Below are positions 34,735 to 41,740 of a DNA stretch of 64,000 bases, piece after piece. Positions within the stretch are counted from its first letter, which is position 1. Each line of letters begins with the position of its first letter. A program made the translations under genes and the position numbers. Location: positions 186,001 through 250,000 of the forward strand of contig NZ_QXFK01000016.1 of assembly GCF_003581645.1 (NCBI RefSeq). The letters are read 5' to 3'. A model generated the notes under the pieces. That model saw nothing but the letters and a program-made list of their open reading frames with translations. It ran no database searches and had not been told where the DNA came from. This DNA is from Pelagerythrobacter aerophilus (lineage in GTDB: Bacteria > Pseudomonadota > Alphaproteobacteria > Sphingomonadales > Sphingomonadaceae).

Positions 34735-35079
34735 TCACGCGGCCTTCTGCCCGACCACGCTTTCGCGCAGCAGATAGATCCGGCCGCAGTCGATCTTCAG
34801 CGGTATGGTCGGGACGCAACCTTCGTCGTCGCCGAGAACCTGACCGCTCTTGAGCGAGATGCGCCAGTTGTGCAGCGGGCAGGTGACGCTGTCGCCGTGC
34901 ACGATGCCCTGGCTGAGCGGTCCCTGCCGGTGCGGGCACTTGTTGACCAGCGCGTAGAACTCGCCGCGCATGGTGTGGAAGACGGCGATCTCGTCGCCGC
35001 CGATCACGGGCAGCGTGGCCGCCATGCCCGGTTCGATCTGCGTGATCGGGCCGAGGTCGAGCCATGTCGCCTCCATCAT
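34735..35079 (-). CDS. nirD: Nitrite reductase small subunit NirD (Rieske-type)
   Basis: 114-residue partner of NirB with a Rieske-like fold. It keeps the CPHR...CPLHNW Cys-His pairs (NKCPHRQGPLSQG and VTCPLHNWRIS), so it may bind a 2Fe-2S centre, unlike some NirD proteins that have lost the ligands. Two adjacent ATG codons (35079 and 35076) overlap the nirB stop. Last gene of the nitrite operon, convergent with fumC. Confidence 0.93.
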   Translation of the reverse strand: MMEATWLDLGPITQIEPGMAATLPVIGGDEIAVFHTMRGEFYALVNKCPHRQGPLSQGIVHGDSVTCPLHNWRISLKSGQVLGDDEGCVPTIPLKIDCGRIYLLRESVVGQKAA

Positions 35080-37577
35080 GCGTACTCCATGCCGGCGGGG
35101 ACGACGGTGGCGAGGTGACTGTGCAGGTCGCGCCGCTCACCCGCCGCCCGCTTAGCCCAGGGATCGTCCTGCATGAATTTCTGCGAATGGCGGAAGCGCG
35201 CGGCGAGCTGCCGCACCGCATCCAGACCGTCGAACATCTGCGCCTTGATCCACTCGAGCCCCTTGCGCTCGAGCCACGGAGCGGTCCGCTCGAGGTAGTG
35301 CGCATCCTCACGGTAGAGCTGGATGAAGGCGGCGCAGGTCTCCAGCGCCTCCTCCTCGGTGGCGACCTTGCACAGCAGGTCGGTGGCGCGAACCTTGATC
35401 CCGCCGTTGCCGCCGATGTGTAGCTCGTAACCGGAATCGACGCAGACCACGCCGAAGTCCTTGATCGTCGCCTCGGCGCAGTTCCGTGGGCAGCCACTGA
35501 CCGCCATCTTGAACTTGTGCGGCATCCAGCTGCCCCAGCTCATCTGCTCGAGCTTCACGCCGAGACCGGTCGAATCCTGCGTGCCGAAGCGGCACCACTC
35601 GGAGCCGACACAGGTCTTCACCGTGCGCAGGCTCTTGCCATAGGCATGGCCCGAGACCATCCCGGCGGCATTGAGGTCGGCCCAGACCGCCGGCAGGTCC
35701 TCTTTCCTGATGCCGAAGATGTCGAGCCGTTGGCCGCCGGTGACCTTGACCATCCGCGCATCGAACTTCTCGACCACGTCGGCGATCGCGCGCAACTCGC
35801 GCGGGTTGGTGATCCCGCCCCACATCCGCGGCACGACCGAATAAGTACCGTCCTTCTGGATGTTGGCGTGAAGCCGCTCGTTGACGAAGCGGCTCTTCTG
35901 GTCGTCCTCGTACTCGCCCGGCCAGGCGCAAAGCAGGTAGTAGTTGAGCGCCGGGCGGCACGAGGCGCAGCCGTCCGGCGTGGTCCAGTGCAGTTCCTGC
36001 ATGACCTGCGGGATCGCCTTCAGCTCCTTCTCCAGGATCAGGCGGCGGACATCGTCGTGACCGAAGCTGGTGCACTTGCACATGGTCGAGGCACCGGCCT
36101 GAACCTCGTCGCCGAGCGTCAGTGCCAGCAGGCTTTCGACCAGGCCGGTGCACGACCCGCAGCTCGCCGAGGCCTTGCACTGCGAACGGACCGCGTCGAG
36201 GCTGCATGCCCCCGCGAGGATGGTGTCGACGACCTTGCCTTTGGATACGCCGTTGCAGCCGCAGATCTCGGCGTCGTCCGAAAGAGCGGCAACGGCGGCG
36301 TTAGAGTCTGCGAGGGCACCCCCGCCGAGCGCGAAGGCCTGGCCGAAGATCAGCCCCTCGCGCATGTCGGAAATATCCTCCTCCTTCCTGAGGAGGTCGA
36401 AGTACCAGTTGCCGTCGGCGGTATCGCCGTAGAGCACCGCACCGACGATGCGGTTTTCCTTGAGGACCAGGCGCTTGTACACACCGCGCGCCGCGTCGCG
36501 CATGACGATGTCCTCGCCCTCGCCGCCGCCCGAGAAGTCGCCGGCCGAGAACACATCGATGCCGGAGACCTTGAGCTTTGTCGAAGTGACCGAGCCCTGG
36601 TAGCCGCCCGAACCATCGAGCTTTCGCTCGGTCAGGTGATCGGCCAGCGCCCGGCACATCTCCCACAGTGGAGCGACGAGACCGTAGCACTGCCCGCGGT
36701 GCTGGACGCATTCGCCGACCGCCACCACGTCCGGATCGGACGTGACCATGTGATCGTCCACCAGGATGCCGCGCTCGCATTCGAGGCCGCCGGTCTTGGC
36801 GAGCCTTGTCGCCGGGCGGATGCCGACGGCCATGACGACAATATCGGCGGGTATCTCGCGCCCGTCCTTCAATCGCACGGCGTCGACGTGGCCGTCCTTC
36901 CCGACGATTTCCTCGGTATCCGCGCCGGTCAGGATCGTCTGCCCGCGCCGTTCCAGCTCCTGCTTCAGCAGCCAGCCAGCCGCTTCGTCGAGCTGCCGCT
37001 CCATCAGCGTCGGCATCAGGTGGATCACGGTGACGTTCATCCCGCGCAAGGACAGGCCATGCGCAGCCTCCAGCCCCAGAAGACCGCCGCCGATCACCAC
37101 CGCATTCCCGCCCAGATCTGCCGCGGCAAGCATCTTGTCGACGTCGTCGAGATCGCGGAACGTCACCACGCCAGGCAGGTCGCGGCCCGGCACGGGGATG
37201 ATGAACGGGTCGGAGCCGGTCGCGATAAGCAGCTTGTCGTACGGCTCGACCCGGCCCGAACGGCTGACCACGGTCTTGCGCTCGCGGTCGATGTGATCGA
37301 CCGGATCGCCGGCGATCAGCTCGATGGCGTTCTCCGTGTACCACTCGGCGGTGTTGAGCACGATCTCGTCGAAGGTCTTCTCGCCGGCGAGCACGGGCGA
37401 GAGCATGATGCGGTTGTAGTTGACCCGCGGCTCGGCGCCGAAGATCACCACGTCGAACCGCTCGCGGTCGCGTTCGAGGATCTCTTCGACGGCCCGGCAA
37501 CCGGCCATGCCGTTGCCGATCACGACCAGCTTCTCCCGCGCCGGCCTGGCAGAATCGAAAGTCGCGGGGGCGTTCAT
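35076..37577 (-). CDS. nirB: Assimilatory nitrite reductase [NAD(P)H], large subunit NirB
   Basis: Reduces nitrite to ammonium. 833 residues: FAD/NAD(P)H pyridine-nucleotide oxidoreductase domain (GNGMAGCRAVEEI at the N-terminus; NAVVIGGGLLGLEAAHGL near 147-164), then a BFD-type 2Fe-2S domain (CGCNGVSKGKVVD, CKASASCGSCTG), and NiR/SiR siroheme domains. The 4Fe-4S/siroheme ligands are TCVGSEWCRFG and SGCPRNCAEA. It needs the siroheme made by CobA and the CysG-like protein of this window. 55 bases separate it from the upstream channel gene. Confidence 0.95.
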   Translation of the reverse strand: MNAPATFDSARPAREKLVVIGNGMAGCRAVEEILERDRERFDVVIFGAEPRVNYNRIMLSPVLAGEKTFDEIVLNTAEWYTENAIELIAGDPVDHIDRERKTVVSRSGRVEPYDKLLIATGSDPFIIPVPGRDLPGVVTFRDLDDVDKMLAAADLGGNAVVIGGGLLGLEAAHGLSLRGMNVTVIHLMPTLMERQLDEAAGWLLKQELERRGQTILTGADTEEIVGKDGHVDAVRLKDGREIPADIVVMAVGIRPATRLAKTGGLECERGILVDDHMVTSDPDVVAVGECVQHRGQCYGLVAPLWEMCRALADHLTERKLDGSGGYQGSVTSTKLKVSGIDVFSAGDFSGGGEGEDIVMRDAARGVYKRLVLKENRIVGAVLYGDTADGNWYFDLLRKEEDISDMREGLIFGQAFALGGGALADSNAAVAALSDDAEICGCNGVSKGKVVDTILAGACSLDAVRSQCKASASCGSCTGLVESLLALTLGDEVQAGASTMCKCTSFGHDDVRRLILEKELKAIPQVMQELHWTTPDGCASCRPALNYYLLCAWPGEYEDDQKSRFVNERLHANIQKDGTYSVVPRMWGGITNPRELRAIADVVEKFDARMVKVTGGQRLDIFGIRKEDLPAVWADLNAAGMVSGHAYGKSLRTVKTCVGSEWCRFGTQDSTGLGVKLEQMSWGSWMPHKFKMAVSGCPRNCAEATIKDFGVVCVDSGYELHIGGNGGIKVRATDLLCKVATEEEALETCAAFIQLYREDAHYLERTAPWLERKGLEWIKAQMFDGLDAVRQLAARFRHSQKFMQDDPWAKRAAGERRDLHSHLATVVPAGMEYA

Positions 37578-37632: not shown

Positions 37633-38469
37633 TCACGCGGCCCGGGCGAGAACCACCGGGGCCTTTGCCCGGCTGGGGCTCGTGCGAACGTGCGTGGCGT
37701 AGAGGGTCAGGCCGGTGAAGGTCAGCCCGCCGACGAGGTTGCCCAGCACGGTCGGGATCTCGTTCCACCAGAGGTAATCGAGCACCGAGAACTCGCCGCC
37801 CATCATCAACGCAGTCGGGAACAGGAACATGTTCACGATCGAATGTTCGAAGACCATGTAGAAGAACAGCATGACCGGCATCCACATGGCGATCGCCTTG
37901 CCGCTGACATTGGTCGAAACCATCGCGCCGACCACGCCGGACGAGACCATCCAGTTGCACAGCATGCCGCGCACGAAGATCGTCATCCATCCGGCTGCGC
38001 CGTACTGGGCGTAACCGAGCGTGCGGTCGACGCCGATCCCGGCCAGTTTCTGGCCCACCTCGCTCGGTTCGACCTGGAAGCCGTAGGTGAAATAGATGGC
38101 CATCAGGACCGCAGTCGTAAGAGCACCGGCGAAGTTGCCGGTGAAAACCAGCCCCCAGTTGCGCAGTACGCCCCGCCAGGTGCAGCCCGGCCGCTTGTCG
38201 AACACCGCCAGCGGCGCGAGGACGAATACTCCGGTGAGGAGATCGAACCCGAACAGGTAGAGGATGATGAAACCTACCGGAAACAGCACCGCACCCAGCA
38301 GCGGTTCGCCGGTTTGTACCGTGACCGAGATCGCGAACGCAGCGCCCAGCGCGAGAGTCGCCCCCGCCATAAAGGCGCGGATCAACGTATCCTTGGTCGA
38401 CATGAAGATCTTGGATTCGCCGGCGTCGACCATCTTGGTGACGAATTCACTCGGTGCGAGATACGACAT
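37633..38469 (-). CDS. Formate/nitrite transporter family channel (NirC/FocA-like)
   Basis: Inner-membrane anion channel of the FNT family. It has 278 residues with six hydrophobic segments. The FNT hallmarks are AFMAGATLALGAAFA in the first helix, NWGLVFTGNFAGAL with the loop Asn, and WMPVMLFFYMVFEHSIVNMFLFP, which contains the central pore His. The position between a porin and nirB points to nitrite rather than formate. ATG 38469 lies 15 bases after the porin stop. Confidence 0.9.
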   Translation of the reverse strand: MSYLAPSEFVTKMVDAGESKIFMSTKDTLIRAFMAGATLALGAAFAISVTVQTGEPLLGAVLFPVGFIILYLFGFDLLTGVFVLAPLAVFDKRPGCTWRGVLRNWGLVFTGNFAGALTTAVLMAIYFTYGFQVEPSEVGQKLAGIGVDRTLGYAQYGAAGWMTIFVRGMLCNWMVSSGVVGAMVSTNVSGKAIAMWMPVMLFFYMVFEHSIVNMFLFPTALMMGGEFSVLDYLWWNEIPTVLGNLVGGLTFTGLTLYATHVRTSPSRAKAPVVLARAA

Positions 38470-38484
38470 TGCAAAACTCCCCGG

Positions 38485-39738
38485 TTAGAAGCTGATTTCG
38501 GCCTGAAGCCAGAATTTCTCGGTATCGACGGCGAACTCGTCCGCCTGATAGTTCGCGTACTTCGCCAGCAGCCCGACCCGGCCGAGCTGGAAGCCGGCCG
38601 AGGCATCCCACTCGCTTCCGTAATCGAGCCCGGCGAAGTCGCTTTCGAACTTGTGGTAAGTGAGGCCGGCCTTCAGACCGGGCAGGAACGGCACGCCGAA
38701 CGCGCGGCCGACCGTGAATGAATAGTCGCGCAGGCCGTTCGGCGGAGTGGTGGTGAACATGTCTGCCCAGCCGTTGAACGCGTGGAGCGTCGCGAGCGGA
38801 GTCTGGAAGGCAGCCACACCGCCGTCGCTGCCGAGTTCCTCGTAACTGGCGGCGAGATTGAAGCCGAATACGCCGACGCCGAGCTGTGCGGCTATGTAGT
38901 CCGCATCGTAGGAGACCGGATTGGCGCCGTAGTCGCTCTGCCGGGCGTAGCTAGCGGAGGCATTCAACTTGACGGGACCAAGAGGGATGTCGGCCCTGGC
39001 GAGAATCCCGTAGGTCTGGCTCGAGAAAGCGATCCGCGTGTCGTAGTCGATCAGATAGGCGAATGCCTTGCCGTCGACGGCGGGGAGATCGATCCCGCCA
39101 TTGAGCAGGACGAGAGCGCCGTCGAAGTGTTCGTTCGGGCTATCGCCGCCGAACACCGTTCGCTGCGAGATCGAGTAAGTCGCGTCGAGGGCGAAGGGGC
39201 CGATCTTCGCCTGGCCGCGCACGGCATCGAAGGTCTGCTCGTTCTGGCGCCAGCCGACGTTGCCGACGAAACGCGCATTGTCGAGAATGATCCGCTGGCG
39301 TCCGATGGTGACGCCGGTACCGTCCTGCATATACGACACCTGCAGCCGGTTGAGTTCGACGTTCTCGGGATCGGCAACGACCGGGAAGGGCTCCACACCG
39401 TTGCCGGGCAGCGTGTCGTTGTAATCGCCGGTCAGCGCCAGCGTGCCCTCGGCTTCGGCGAGGATCGAGAAACCGTCGATCGCGAGTTCGGCGCCGGCGC
39501 GGCCGCGCAGGGTGAGCGCTTCGGCGTCTTCGGGCATGCCGGCCTGATCGACGCTTTCATGCTGCAGGCGTGCGGCAAGGATCGGATCGAGCGTTGCGCC
39601 GCCGCCGATCTCGACCGGGTCGCCGGGCGCGGCGGTTGCGACTTGCGGCCAGGCCCCGCCCGCGAGCGCAGCCAGCGCCCCGATCCGCATTCGCCGCTGA
39701 CCGTGTTTCGTCTGAAAACCTGCGCTGTGATCGCCCAT
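38485..39738 (-). CDS. Outer-membrane beta-barrel porin (alginate-export-like) of the nitrite cluster
   Basis: 417 residues from ATG 39738; a start at 39690 (MRIGALAAL) is also possible and directly precedes the signal peptide, with cleavage after ATA-A. The mature protein is rich in alternating aromatic/polar strands (ILDNARFVGNVGWRQNEQTF, DATYSISQRTVFGG) and ends in AEISF, the C-terminal Phe recognised by the BAM complex. It resembles alginate-export family porins. First gene after the terminator-bearing leader, so it probably admits nitrite or nitrate through the outer membrane (inference from context). Confidence 0.8.
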   Translation of the reverse strand: MGDHSAGFQTKHGQRRMRIGALAALAGGAWPQVATAAPGDPVEIGGGATLDPILAARLQHESVDQAGMPEDAEALTLRGRAGAELAIDGFSILAEAEGTLALTGDYNDTLPGNGVEPFPVVADPENVELNRLQVSYMQDGTGVTIGRQRIILDNARFVGNVGWRQNEQTFDAVRGQAKIGPFALDATYSISQRTVFGGDSPNEHFDGALVLLNGGIDLPAVDGKAFAYLIDYDTRIAFSSQTYGILARADIPLGPVKLNASASYARQSDYGANPVSYDADYIAAQLGVGVFGFNLAASYEELGSDGGVAAFQTPLATLHAFNGWADMFTTTPPNGLRDYSFTVGRAFGVPFLPGLKAGLTYHKFESDFAGLDYGSEWDASAGFQLGRVGLLAKYANYQADEFAVDTEKFWLQAEISF

Positions 39739-39767
39739 CAAAACCTCGCCGGACCAGCGCACAACGC

Positions 39768-39815
39768 AAAAAAGCCGCCTCGACAGGATCCCGGGAGGGA
39801 ACCAGATCGGGCGGC
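39768..39815 (-). terminator. Intrinsic terminator in the 5' leader of the porin-nirC-nirB-nirD operon
   Basis: On the minus strand GCCGCC pairs with GGCGGC, an inner GGTTCCC/GGGATCC arm extends the hairpin (one mismatch), and six T residues follow. It stands only 30 bases before the porin ATG (39738), after which translation begins. A terminator between the regulator genes and the structural genes is the classic target of NasT antitermination, as described for nas/nasF leaders. Confidence 0.75.
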
Positions 39816-39856
39816 GACGTTGCCACGCAATGTAAGAACCGAACGGAAGCGTTGCT

Positions 39857-39919
39857 CGCTCCCAGCGTTGGGGCGGCGTCCGTTCTGCAGGGGATGTTAT
39901 CGAATCAGCGGGCGTTCGC
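39857..39919 (-). ncRNA. Candidate NasT (ANTAR) target: two hairpins with AACGC hexaloops
   Basis: On the minus strand two hairpins precede the terminator. The first (39908-39919) is GCG-AACGCC-CGC. The second (39857-39875) is CGCCCC-AACGCT-GGGaGCG with one bulged A. Both have six-base loops with A at position 1 and G at position 4, the pattern recognised by ANTAR RNA-binding domains, and the loops share AACGC. The first stem is short (3 bp plus weak extension), so it needs testing. A 7-bp hairpin, TTTTTGC/GCAAAAA (39926-39945), lies just after the nasS stop. Confidence 0.5.
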
Positions 39920-39953
39920 AAGCAATTTTTGCGATGCAGCAAAAACTCGGCTG

Positions 39954-41162
39954 CTAGAGAAGGCGAGCGAGGTACTCTTCCATCTTTTCTGGATCGAAGC
40001 TGTCGCCGTCAAAAAAAGTGTTCGGAGACAATGTGATAATGCCCTGTTGCGTGCCCACTGAGGTGAGCTGTGCGACACTCCCTTCCACTTTCGAACTGGC
40101 GCCCGGCAGGGGATCGCCGGTATCGTACATTGCACTGCGGTAGACATCCGGTCGAAAGACCGCCGCGGCCGCTGCGGCCTCCTCGGCGGAGAAGGGGGAG
40201 CGATCCCAGCGGATCATCTGGGTGTACAGCCACAGCGCCTGACTGGCCCAGGGGAAGTTGGCCGCCTCGCTGTACTGGAACATGAAATCCGGGAAGTGCA
40301 CCGCCTCTCCCCCGGATTGCAGAACCAGGCGATCCGATATCGCGCGGCGGATCAGCGCCGGATCGCCGCCGACATACTCGGGCCGCGCAAGGATCCTCGC
40401 ATTCGCATCCCAGTTCTCCGGATCAACGAAGTGGCGGCCGGCCCTGCGCATGGCGCGGATCAGTGCCTCGAACGCAGGACGCCGGGCATCCAGTACCGGC
40501 CGCCGCACGGCGAGGACCTTTTCCACACCCCTTCGCCAAATCTGGGCGGTGGCAAGCACGATCCGGGCGACGTCGCGCTCGACCGCGAGGCTGTTCCACG
40601 GTTCACCGACGCAAGCGCCGTCGATCTCCCCATTGGCGTAGGCGTCCGCAACGAAGGGAGGGGCAACGGTCACGATCTCGACGTCCTCGTCGGGCCGGAT
40701 TCCGCAAGCCGCGAGCCAGTAGCGCAGCATGTAATTGTGGCTGGAGTAGCGGTGGACCACACCGAAGCGGAGCTTCGCCCCGGCGCGTTTGCGCTCCGCC
40801 GCTTCGCTCGCCAGTGCGGCGCCGAGCCGGCGGGGATCCTCGAACGTGCCCGACCGTGCGATCCTGCCGGCCAGCGCGGTGGACATCGTGACCCCATTGC
40901 CGTTGAGCCCGAGCACGAACGGCACGGCCAGTGGCTGCGCAGGACGGCCACGGCCGAGAGTAGCGGCGATCGCCAGCGGCGCGATCAGGTGTGCGGTGTC
41001 GGTGTGTCCGTAGAGCAGCCGATCGAGCACGGTCGCCCAACTCACATCGCGCTGAAAACTCAGTGCGAGTCCTTCCTCTTCGGCAAAACCATGCTCGTGC
41101 GCGAGGATCGGCAGGCAGGCATCCGCCAGCGGGAGGAAACCGATGGTGAGTTGCTCGGTCAC
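39954..41162 (-). CDS. nasS: Nitrate sensor NasS (cytoplasmic NrtA-like binding protein)
   Basis: 402 residues, related to the nitrate-binding proteins NrtA/CmpA, but starting directly with the binding domain (MTEQLTIGFLPLADACLPIL) and no signal peptide. NasS proteins hold NasT inactive until nitrate or nitrite binds. Motifs: GHTDTAHLIAPLA, HRYSSHNYMLRYWLAACGI, DGACVGEPWNS. ATGA overlap with nasT upstream fixes the start and the pairing. An ABC-transporter role is unlikely, since no permease or ATPase genes are present. Confidence 0.88.
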   Translation of the reverse strand: MTEQLTIGFLPLADACLPILAHEHGFAEEEGLALSFQRDVSWATVLDRLLYGHTDTAHLIAPLAIAATLGRGRPAQPLAVPFVLGLNGNGVTMSTALAGRIARSGTFEDPRRLGAALASEAAERKRAGAKLRFGVVHRYSSHNYMLRYWLAACGIRPDEDVEIVTVAPPFVADAYANGEIDGACVGEPWNSLAVERDVARIVLATAQIWRRGVEKVLAVRRPVLDARRPAFEALIRAMRRAGRHFVDPENWDANARILARPEYVGGDPALIRRAISDRLVLQSGGEAVHFPDFMFQYSEAANFPWASQALWLYTQMIRWDRSPFSAEEAAAAAAVFRPDVYRSAMYDTGDPLPGASSKVEGSVAQLTSVGTQQGIITLSPNTFFDGDSFDPEKMEEYLARLL

Positions 41163-41740
41163 GTTCCGTCTCCCAGAAGGTCGTGCGCCGTCACGACCGC
41201 TTCCGCTATCTCGGCGATCCGCCGGTTCGAGCTCATCGCCTTGCGGCGCAATTCCGCATAGGCCTCGGGCTCGCTGAGCTTCTTGCTATCCATCAGGATG
41301 CGCTTGGCGCGATCGATGGTTTCGCGCTCGGCGAGCTTGCCTTCGGCCGCCGCCAGATCGGCCTGAAGTCTGGCAAAGGCATTGAAGCGCTTGATTGCCA
41401 GATCGAGCAACGGCCTGATCCGGTGGGCGGAAAGGCCGTCGACGACATAGGCGGAAACGCCGGCATCGATCGACGCGGCGATCGCTTCGTCGTCCGACTC
41501 GTCGACGAACATTGCAATGGGTCGGGCGAGCACGCGGCTGACGGCGAAGTATTCCTCCAGCACGTCGCGCGAAGGGTTGCCGAGATCGATCAGCACGACA
41601 TCAGGCGCGAACGCTTCGAGCCGCGAGATGAGACCCTGTCGCTCCGTCAGGATGAATATCTCGCTATCCGCCAGCTGCGCCAGCCCGTCCTCGATGATCG
41701 ACGCCCTCGTGGTGCTTTCGTCGATGATCGCAATCCGCAT
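41159..41740 (-). CDS. nasT: NasT-type antiterminator (receiver-like plus ANTAR domain)
   Basis: 193 residues. The N-terminal 120 residues form a response-regulator-like domain with the aspartate of VVLIDLGNPSRD. The C-terminal ANTAR domain (RETIDRAKRILMDSKKLSE, AYAELRRKAMSSNRRIAEIAEAV) binds paired hexaloop hairpins in leader RNA and prevents termination. NasS keeps it sequestered without nitrate/nitrite. Encoded upstream of nasS with an ATGA overlap. The likely target is the leader at 39739-39953. Confidence 0.92.
   Translation of the reverse strand: MRIAIIDESTTRASIIEDGLAQLADSEIFILTERQGLISRLEAFAPDVVLIDLGNPSRDVLEEYFAVSRVLARPIAMFVDESDDEAIAASIDAGVSAYVVDGLSAHRIRPLLDLAIKRFNAFARLQADLAAAEGKLAERETIDRAKRILMDSKKLSEPEAYAELRRKAMSSNRRIAEIAEAVVTAHDLLGDGT

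Follow-up and report, generated by a model that had tools for sequence, protein, structure and literature searches.

The locus considered here raises the question of whether the stretch separating nasS from a porin gene in Pelagerythrobacter aerophilus (positions 39739-39953 of the window, i.e., of the whole 64,000-nt stretch of DNA that was analysed, placed at G000:C3:186001-250000 in its own genome) serves as an RNA leader through which NasT controls the genes behind it, and which of its hairpins would then be recognized. ANTAR leaders, as well as NasT control of nitrate genes, are already known. The genes concerned follow one another on the minus strand in the order nasT, nasS, leader, porin, nirC, nirB, and nirD (Table 1). 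As an earlier note on this DNA had claimed, NasT, encoded just upstream, has an ANTAR domain, and it is the single PF03861 match found by a search of its genome. The nasT product also matches PDB chains 1s8n (a putative antiterminator), 6wsh/6ww6 (EutV), 4akk (a nitrate regulatory protein), and 1qo0 (AmiR), and the gene for the substrate-binding NasS adjoins it, as in a NasS–NasT gene pair. Among the named records, which may omit the window's own record, the closest NasS comes from a MAG called Altererythrobacter sp. (95%), followed by that of Pelagerythrobacter rhizovicinus (90%). Judged from its sequence, the stretch most likely serves as a leader for antitermination by NasT, of the ANTAR kind, built on a pair of hairpins designated P1 and P2.

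Hairpins and terminator of the leader

Three hexaloop hairpins with A at loop position 1 and G at position 4 lie between nasS and the porin gene on the minus strand. Two of them, with loops AACGCC (loop start 39916) and AACGCT (39869), had been described in the earlier note as the NasT target and are indeed present; the third and stronger one, GTGGC[AACGTC]GCCGC, had been overlooked and is referred to here as P2, while AACGCT belongs to P1. P1 and P2 together provide the two six-base loops with A1 and G4 that are expected of an ANTAR target. The P1 stem in the window is interrupted (3 bp, a bulged A, 3 bp), and P1 is enclosed by a clasp helix, P0. The 3′ arm of P2 is at the same time the 5′ arm of the terminator, with 39811-39815 common to both, which is the overlap known from ANTAR leaders. 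The GC-rich terminator itself is found just before the porin ATG, as previously noted, its T6 (39768-39773) ending 29 nt before the start codon (39736-39738). A simple terminator scan admitting only loops of 3-8 missed this structure and gave a weaker site at 39747-39759, and Rfam at gathering thresholds returned two tRNAs and nothing else.

Table 1. Genes and leader elements around the nasS–porin junction (positions in the window).
Feature	Position	Strand	Basis and remarks
nasT	41159..41740	-	response-regulator-like, C-terminal ANTAR; PF03861 E 7.9e-17, residues 132-183
nasS	39954..41162	-	NMT1-like, putative nitrate/nitrite-binding protein; PF13379 E 2.1e-59
DNA palindrome TTTGCTGCATCGCAAAA	39927..39943	-	pattern search; upstream of promoter-like block; possible regulator site
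Promoter-like block TTGCGA, 16 nt, TAACAT	39894..39921	-	conserved pattern in relatives
First hairpin GCG[AACGCC]CGC	39908-39919, loop start 39916	-	hexaloop scan; inside promoter-like block
P0 clasp helix, 5′ side	39879..39888	-	pairs with 39838-39847 in fold; arms covary
P1 hexaloop hairpin CGC-CCC[AACGCT]GGG-A-GCG (hairpin 2 of the earlier note)	39857..39875, loop start 39869	-	hexaloop scan and covariation
P0 clasp helix, 3′ side	39838..39847	-	fold and covariation; 11 nt (39827-39837) remain before P2
P2 candidate antiterminator hairpin GTGGC[AACGTC]GCCGC, 5 bp	39811..39826, loop start 39821	-	hexaloop scan and conserved motif
Intrinsic terminator GCCGCC...GGCGGC-T6	39768..39815	-	GC-rich; T6 at 39768-39773
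porin (outer-membrane, Alginate_exp)	38485..39738	-	first gene after leader; PF13372 E 7.8e-08
nirC	37633..38469	-	formate/nitrite transporter; PF01226 E 1.1e-63
nirB	35076..37577	-	nitrite reductase large subunit; PF07992, PF01077 and others
nirD	34735..35079	-	Rieske-type small subunit; PF00355 E 5.8e-16

In 1000 dinucleotide-preserving shuffles of 39739-39953, hexaloops of this kind with stems of at least 3 bp arise by chance at a mean of 0.56 per shuffle; at least two are seen in 10.6% of the shuffled leaders, at least three in 1.6%, and one with 5 bp in 7.9%. Hairpin counts, including the two previously described, are therefore weak evidence by themselves. In folding predictions, the terminator forms in the full leader (z -2.47 versus shuffles), and a piece devoid of the terminator 3′ arm folds P2. 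The predicted fold of a piece comprising P0, P1, and P2 is no more stable than those of its shuffled versions (z -0.70), and the folding program pairs A1 of the P1 loop with U6 in the window, so that a tetraloop is drawn.

Conservation, covariation, and the distribution of leaders

A search with NasS gave 111 loci, 31 from a genome set and 80 from named records (the best 80 of 281); L001 and L002 both denote a single site of the window's own genome. In 92 of the 111, nasS is followed within 500 nt by the exact P2 motif GTGGC[A..G..]GCCGC, namely in 79 of the 80 loci from the best 80 of 281 named records (the miss being L093) and in 13 of the 31 loci from the genome set. Six of the 92 are duplicates, leaving 86 distinct leaders. 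The motif is absent in 19 loci (L010, L015-L031, and L093), in 17 of which NasS shows less than 60% identity. Thirteen of these 19 were searched with R1, a model trained on leaders behind nasS: matches at E <1e-8 were obtained in L093, L010, L019, and L017, one at 1.3e-4 in L018, those in L024, L028, L026, L027, L023, and L025 had E values of 0.0068-0.86, and R1 found no match in L015 and L016.

In 79 of the 86 leaders (hand count), a P1 hairpin precedes the P2 loop by 45-54 nt, with A or G at position 1, G at position 4, and at least three contiguous pairs being imposed by the filter; 12 of the 79 bear G at position 1 (by eye). Six more leaders received a P1 through a looser two-pair rule, and L013 received none. 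The alignment A1 used for the covariation test comprises 74 of the 85 leaders, rows at least 75% identical over 90 nt having been dropped; it includes L048, kept in the tests with a hairpin assigned 45 nt upstream when a better one lies at 49. In the test, each leader's arm was paired with its own partner and with the partners of other leaders (n=74, 20000 permutations). The permutation ignores relatedness, and similar arms of near relatives are expected to make the test stricter rather than laxer.

The covariation search across relatives, which the earlier note had proposed as a check, gives a strong signal for P1 (z -16.2, observed value reached in 0 of 20000 permutations) and none for the first hairpin (z -0.4 and -0.3, n=74), the negative control being at z 0.1. 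P0 also covaries (z -10.8, 0/20000). Its inner half accounts for z -10.9 (0/20000), while the outer half gives no clear covariation (z -1.8, 761/20000), so the claim of a clasp rests on the inner half. Compensatory change is found in P1, five of whose six pairs changed on both sides in the alignment, and, by permutation, in P0. P1 and P2 together contain 99 cells with both sides changed versus a shuffled mean of 33.0. P2 is invariant in the alignment, the rows of which were chosen by its motif, and cannot show covariation; its z of +3.4 was obtained with constant arms in windows that also held variable bases outside the stem. The nine basal pairs of the terminator hold in 98.3% of cells (74 leaders), and its apical part, which varies in length, does not covary in fixed windows (z -0.7). 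RNAalifold on the same alignment found P1 and the terminator and did not find P0 or P2. At least five clasp pairs are predicted in 71 of the 74 native leaders versus 87% of leaders given another leader's left flank; as flank-swapped leaders still clasp, the evidence for P0 is the covariation test, not the pair count.

It is therefore conservation, not the number of hairpins, that decides between them at the sequence level: P1 and P2 are kept, and the first hairpin is not. According to the earlier note, NasT would recognize the first hairpin and P1 (39908-39919 and 39857-39875) as its pair, and GGCGGC, the 3′ arm of the terminator, could instead pair with GCCGCC beside P1 as an antiterminator. 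Both loops do have A1 and G4, and P1 stands as one half of the target; the other half does not covary, none of the 74 leaders has a hexaloop with at least 4 bp at 90-97 nt before the P2 loop, the first hairpin overlaps the promoter-like block (its loop starting 47 nt upstream of the P1 loop), and the proposed arm pairing shows no covariation either (z 0.0, n=74). The first hairpin was accordingly rejected as a part of the switch, as was the proposed pairing, and the whole arrangement is extremely unlikely. NasT-type antitermination as such, which the note had also proposed, remains the best reading in view of the sole ANTAR match, the covarying P1, and a P2 that shares the terminator arm. The possibility that the linker conceals a further hexaloop in its middle, as is the case in some other alphaproteobacteria, was also considered and rejected: stems of at least 4 bp 14-41 nt upstream of P2 occur in no more than 1 of 74 leaders per offset bin.

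A promoter-like pattern is found in 71 of the 86 leaders, where CTT[TG][ACG][CG] soon after GCAA/GCGAA is followed by about ten little-conserved bases and a CGAATCGCTTA-like block. The first two elements were imposed as filters (15 of the 86 failed), so only the CGAATCGCTTA-like block counts as promoter evidence. A scan with consensus promoters found none at the leader. The block looks like a promoter, and transcription would start near 39887. Upstream of it, the pattern TTTGCTGCRNYGCAAAA matches its own genome, at no more than one mismatch, solely at the palindrome (exactly); a reversed control pattern also gave one match. The idea of a PhaR box was dropped since no second site was found in this genome at up to one mismatch. 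By eye, TGC..GCAAAA stretches resembling the palindrome are seen upstream of many relatives' leaders.

Leaders of this type are not confined to the position behind nasS. Under the stricter filters of the large searches, the window's genome has one R1 leader; the P2 pattern occurs there once more (G000:C17:34786-34802, L113), but this copy has no R1 match at E up to 1 and is taken as chance. Across 59 genomes, R1 matched at E <1e-5 in 10 of the 18 with a NasS match versus 0 of the 41 without one, a comparison biased by the training of R1, and weak matches (E 0.01-0.1) occur in 5 of those 41. Seven leaders, none used in training, are not directly behind nasS (two each in G001 and G018, one each in G004, G005, and G019; E 3.2e-17 to 1.1e-10); in these 5 of 59 genomes, they are followed by nirB (5), nirC (1), and a kinase/narK unit (1). 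An eighth (G022, E 5.6e-7) precedes a gene 33-37% identical to NasS. In G012:C1:1149502-1152179, NasS matches fall into four pieces, perhaps a broken nasS plus a second relative.

Gene pairs are commonly followed at once by a terminator, and the one present here is the default fold of the full leader, so one may ask whether it simply closes nasTS, or acts as a constitutive attenuator, with no control by NasT. Such an account leaves unexplained the conserved GTGGC arm, the R..G loops, and the covarying P1 upstream, and both G001 leaders lie about 475 kb from nasTS, before nirB and the kinase/narK unit (L135). It is quite improbable.

Proposed mechanism and comparison with known ANTAR systems

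In the NasT antitermination reading, P1 would fold on the end of the P0-clasped arm of the nascent transcript. Without nitrate/nitrite, NasS would hold NasT, the terminator GCCGCC...GGCGGC-U6 would form, and transcription would stop before the porin gene. With nitrate/nitrite, freed NasT would bind the hexaloops and stabilize P2, and because P2 occupies GCCGC, the terminator 5′ arm, the terminator could not form and porin-nirC-nirB-nirD would be transcribed. The mechanism as a whole is considered highly probable; related systems (PMC3795266, PMC5424462) are our basis for inferring that NasT binds the leader and that nitrate/nitrite controls it.

In Paracoccus denitrificans, as described in passages of these two papers, nasT-nasS is likewise followed by a hairpin-bearing region of about 200 bp, the nasA leader is bound by NasT in the presence of nitrate, and mutation of hairpin I severely lowers activity. 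Hairpins I and II are 46 bp apart there (137 and 91 bp upstream of nasA), with no P2 in the cited descriptions, whereas P2 and the clasp in the window are defined by comparison. The nasF leader of Klebsiella oxytoca resembles the present one in having P1, A1/G4 loops, a P2 overlapping the terminator, and nitrate genes downstream, but its NasR itself senses nitrate, unlike NasS–NasT (PMC3369936). The eut leaders of Enterococcus faecalis recognized by EutV also carry two hexaloop hairpins with conserved positions 1 and 4 and an arm shared by P2 and the terminator (PMC3369931, PMC8934654), but EutV is activated by a kinase, while NasT is presumably set free by NasS instead. In Bradyrhizobium, narK and bjgb, both with leaders predicted to form NasT hairpins, are reported to go up rather than down when nasT is mutated (PMC6759348); hairpins alone thus do not prove activation.

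The leader also differs from the eut leaders in its spacing, their linker being 5-12 nt. The P1–P2 linker in the window measures 30 nt with the bulged P1 stem (34 by a script counting contiguous stems only), and over the 74 leaders, it ranges from 28 to 37 nt (median 33). As reported, a 14-nt linker drastically cut induction of eut in vivo (PMC3369931), 20 nt added to the linker abolished antitermination by EutV in vitro (PMC8934654), and a search for actinobacterial ANTAR RNAs demanded 2-25 nt between P1 and P2 (PMC8164766). The window lies outside both the 5-12 and the 2-25 nt ranges, and 30 nt exceeds the length shown to work for EutV, which counts against the NasT reading. Only if P0 is counted does the distance shrink to 11 nt, a value that holds for the window only, since the remainder varies and unconstrained pairing often reaches P2: in the 71 of 74 leaders with at least five clasp pairs, the median remainder is 6 nt, with 0 in 24 of 71 and a maximum of 19.

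The known spacing is encountered farther away. In 28 new stretches behind more distant NasT genes, a rough finder, used with no positive control on known leaders, gave some match in 16 and none in 12. Loop-to-loop spacing of 18-22 nt, the known form, is seen in ten (L176, L178, L179, L180, L181, L182, L183, L186, L189, and L200), longer spacings only (34-89 nt) in L173, L174, and L185, and the matches in L188, L194, and L195 look false. L180, L183, and L189 have an extra hexaloop 47-51 nt upstream besides the short spacing; there, and by eye in L017, L023, L027, and L028, seemingly three R..G hexaloop hairpins precede the terminator. As the cited passages of published ANTAR work present it, short P1–P2 spacing is taken either as a functional need (EutV) or as a search criterion (2-25 nt). 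Conserved leaders outside this spacing, with a covarying clasp, offer a direct test of what the spacing means and suggest that ANTAR RNA searches limited to 2-25 nt would miss such leaders.

Genes behind the leaders and the convergent kinase

The genes next to the 86 distinct leaders were surveyed by tblastn with six reference proteins. An NMT1-like protein gene follows 50 leaders, a porin gene 11, narK 2, and nirB 1, with another gene or none behind the remaining 22. We take the NMT1-like protein to be NrtA-type. One might suppose that the terminated leader, with its two NasT-type loops, is a small RNA titrating NasT, readthrough being of little weight; the sequestration of EutV by EutX, discussed in passages of PMC8934654, provides a model. 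In 64 of the 86 leaders, a nitrogen-related or porin gene of the same orientation begins no more than 500 nt away, and such titration appears very unlikely as compared with NasT-dependent readthrough.

Two of the 22 leaders with another gene or none stand in incomplete loci (the window's own, L001, and L102), and 20 face an opposite-strand gene for a PP2C phosphatase and Ser/Thr kinase, the match to which ends 92-157 nt beyond the P2 loop. For 17 of these 20, narK starts between +1892 and +1967 on the same strand as the leader; the L008, L009, and L011 loci stop before narK, which longer genome stretches reveal at this place for L008 and L009. A porin gene lies between the leader and the convergent kinase in L036 and L041. 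P1 and P0 still covary in the convergent subset (n=19; 0 and 3 of 20000), so that the RNA is retained even where the following gene runs antisense, and readthrough from these 20 of 86 leaders would be antisense to the kinase. A query with the convergent kinase gave no match in the window's genome, in a search run with no known positive.

Several layouts deserve mention. The leader is aimed at the 3′ end of the convergent kinase gene, with narK divergent, in L034, L044, L048, L137:7809-9753, and L135:7267-9228, a possible noncontiguous operon; of these, L034 belongs to Croceibacterium soli. The gap between the kinase gene and narK contains a GC-rich inverted repeat of the CTCACGC...GCGTGAG type, seen by eye in L034, L044, L068, L091, and others. 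A distant kinase/phosphatase copy (27-33% identity) lies near nirC in the same direction in L134:4250-5929, L136:2651-4342, L139:8926-10593, and L140:4655-6232; in L134 and L139, it is upstream of the leader preceding nirB.

A precedent for such a layout is the noncontiguous operon menE-menC-MW1733-ytkD-MW1731 of S. aureus (PMC7154746), where an opposite-strand gene is situated inside a potential transcript, as in the 20 of 86 leaders (the window excepted); the term ANTAR is absent from this review. Literature coverage extended to ANTAR/NasT with Novosphingobium, to noncontiguous operons or the excludon with antitermination, and to nitrate assimilation with threonine kinase, nasT, nirB, or narK; among the matches listed from open-licence PMC, no description of the leader or of the convergent kinase was found, as judged from the entries and from passages of PMC9281055, PMC7154746, PMC4724949, and PMC6759348.

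It is conceivable, if rather doubtful at present, that these leaders constitute a separate sphingomonad class of long-arm ANTAR leaders, in which a covarying clasp replaces the short spacing, and that in the 20 of 86 relatives NasT-dependent readthrough runs antisense through the PP2C/Ser-Thr kinase gene into narK as a noncontiguous operon. A transcript reaching from the leader to narK is a hypothesis here, and narK may have its own promoter. If transcribed as the layout suggests, the convergent-kinase arrangement would join antitermination to antisense control, and nitrate would open the way for its own uptake while silencing the kinase.
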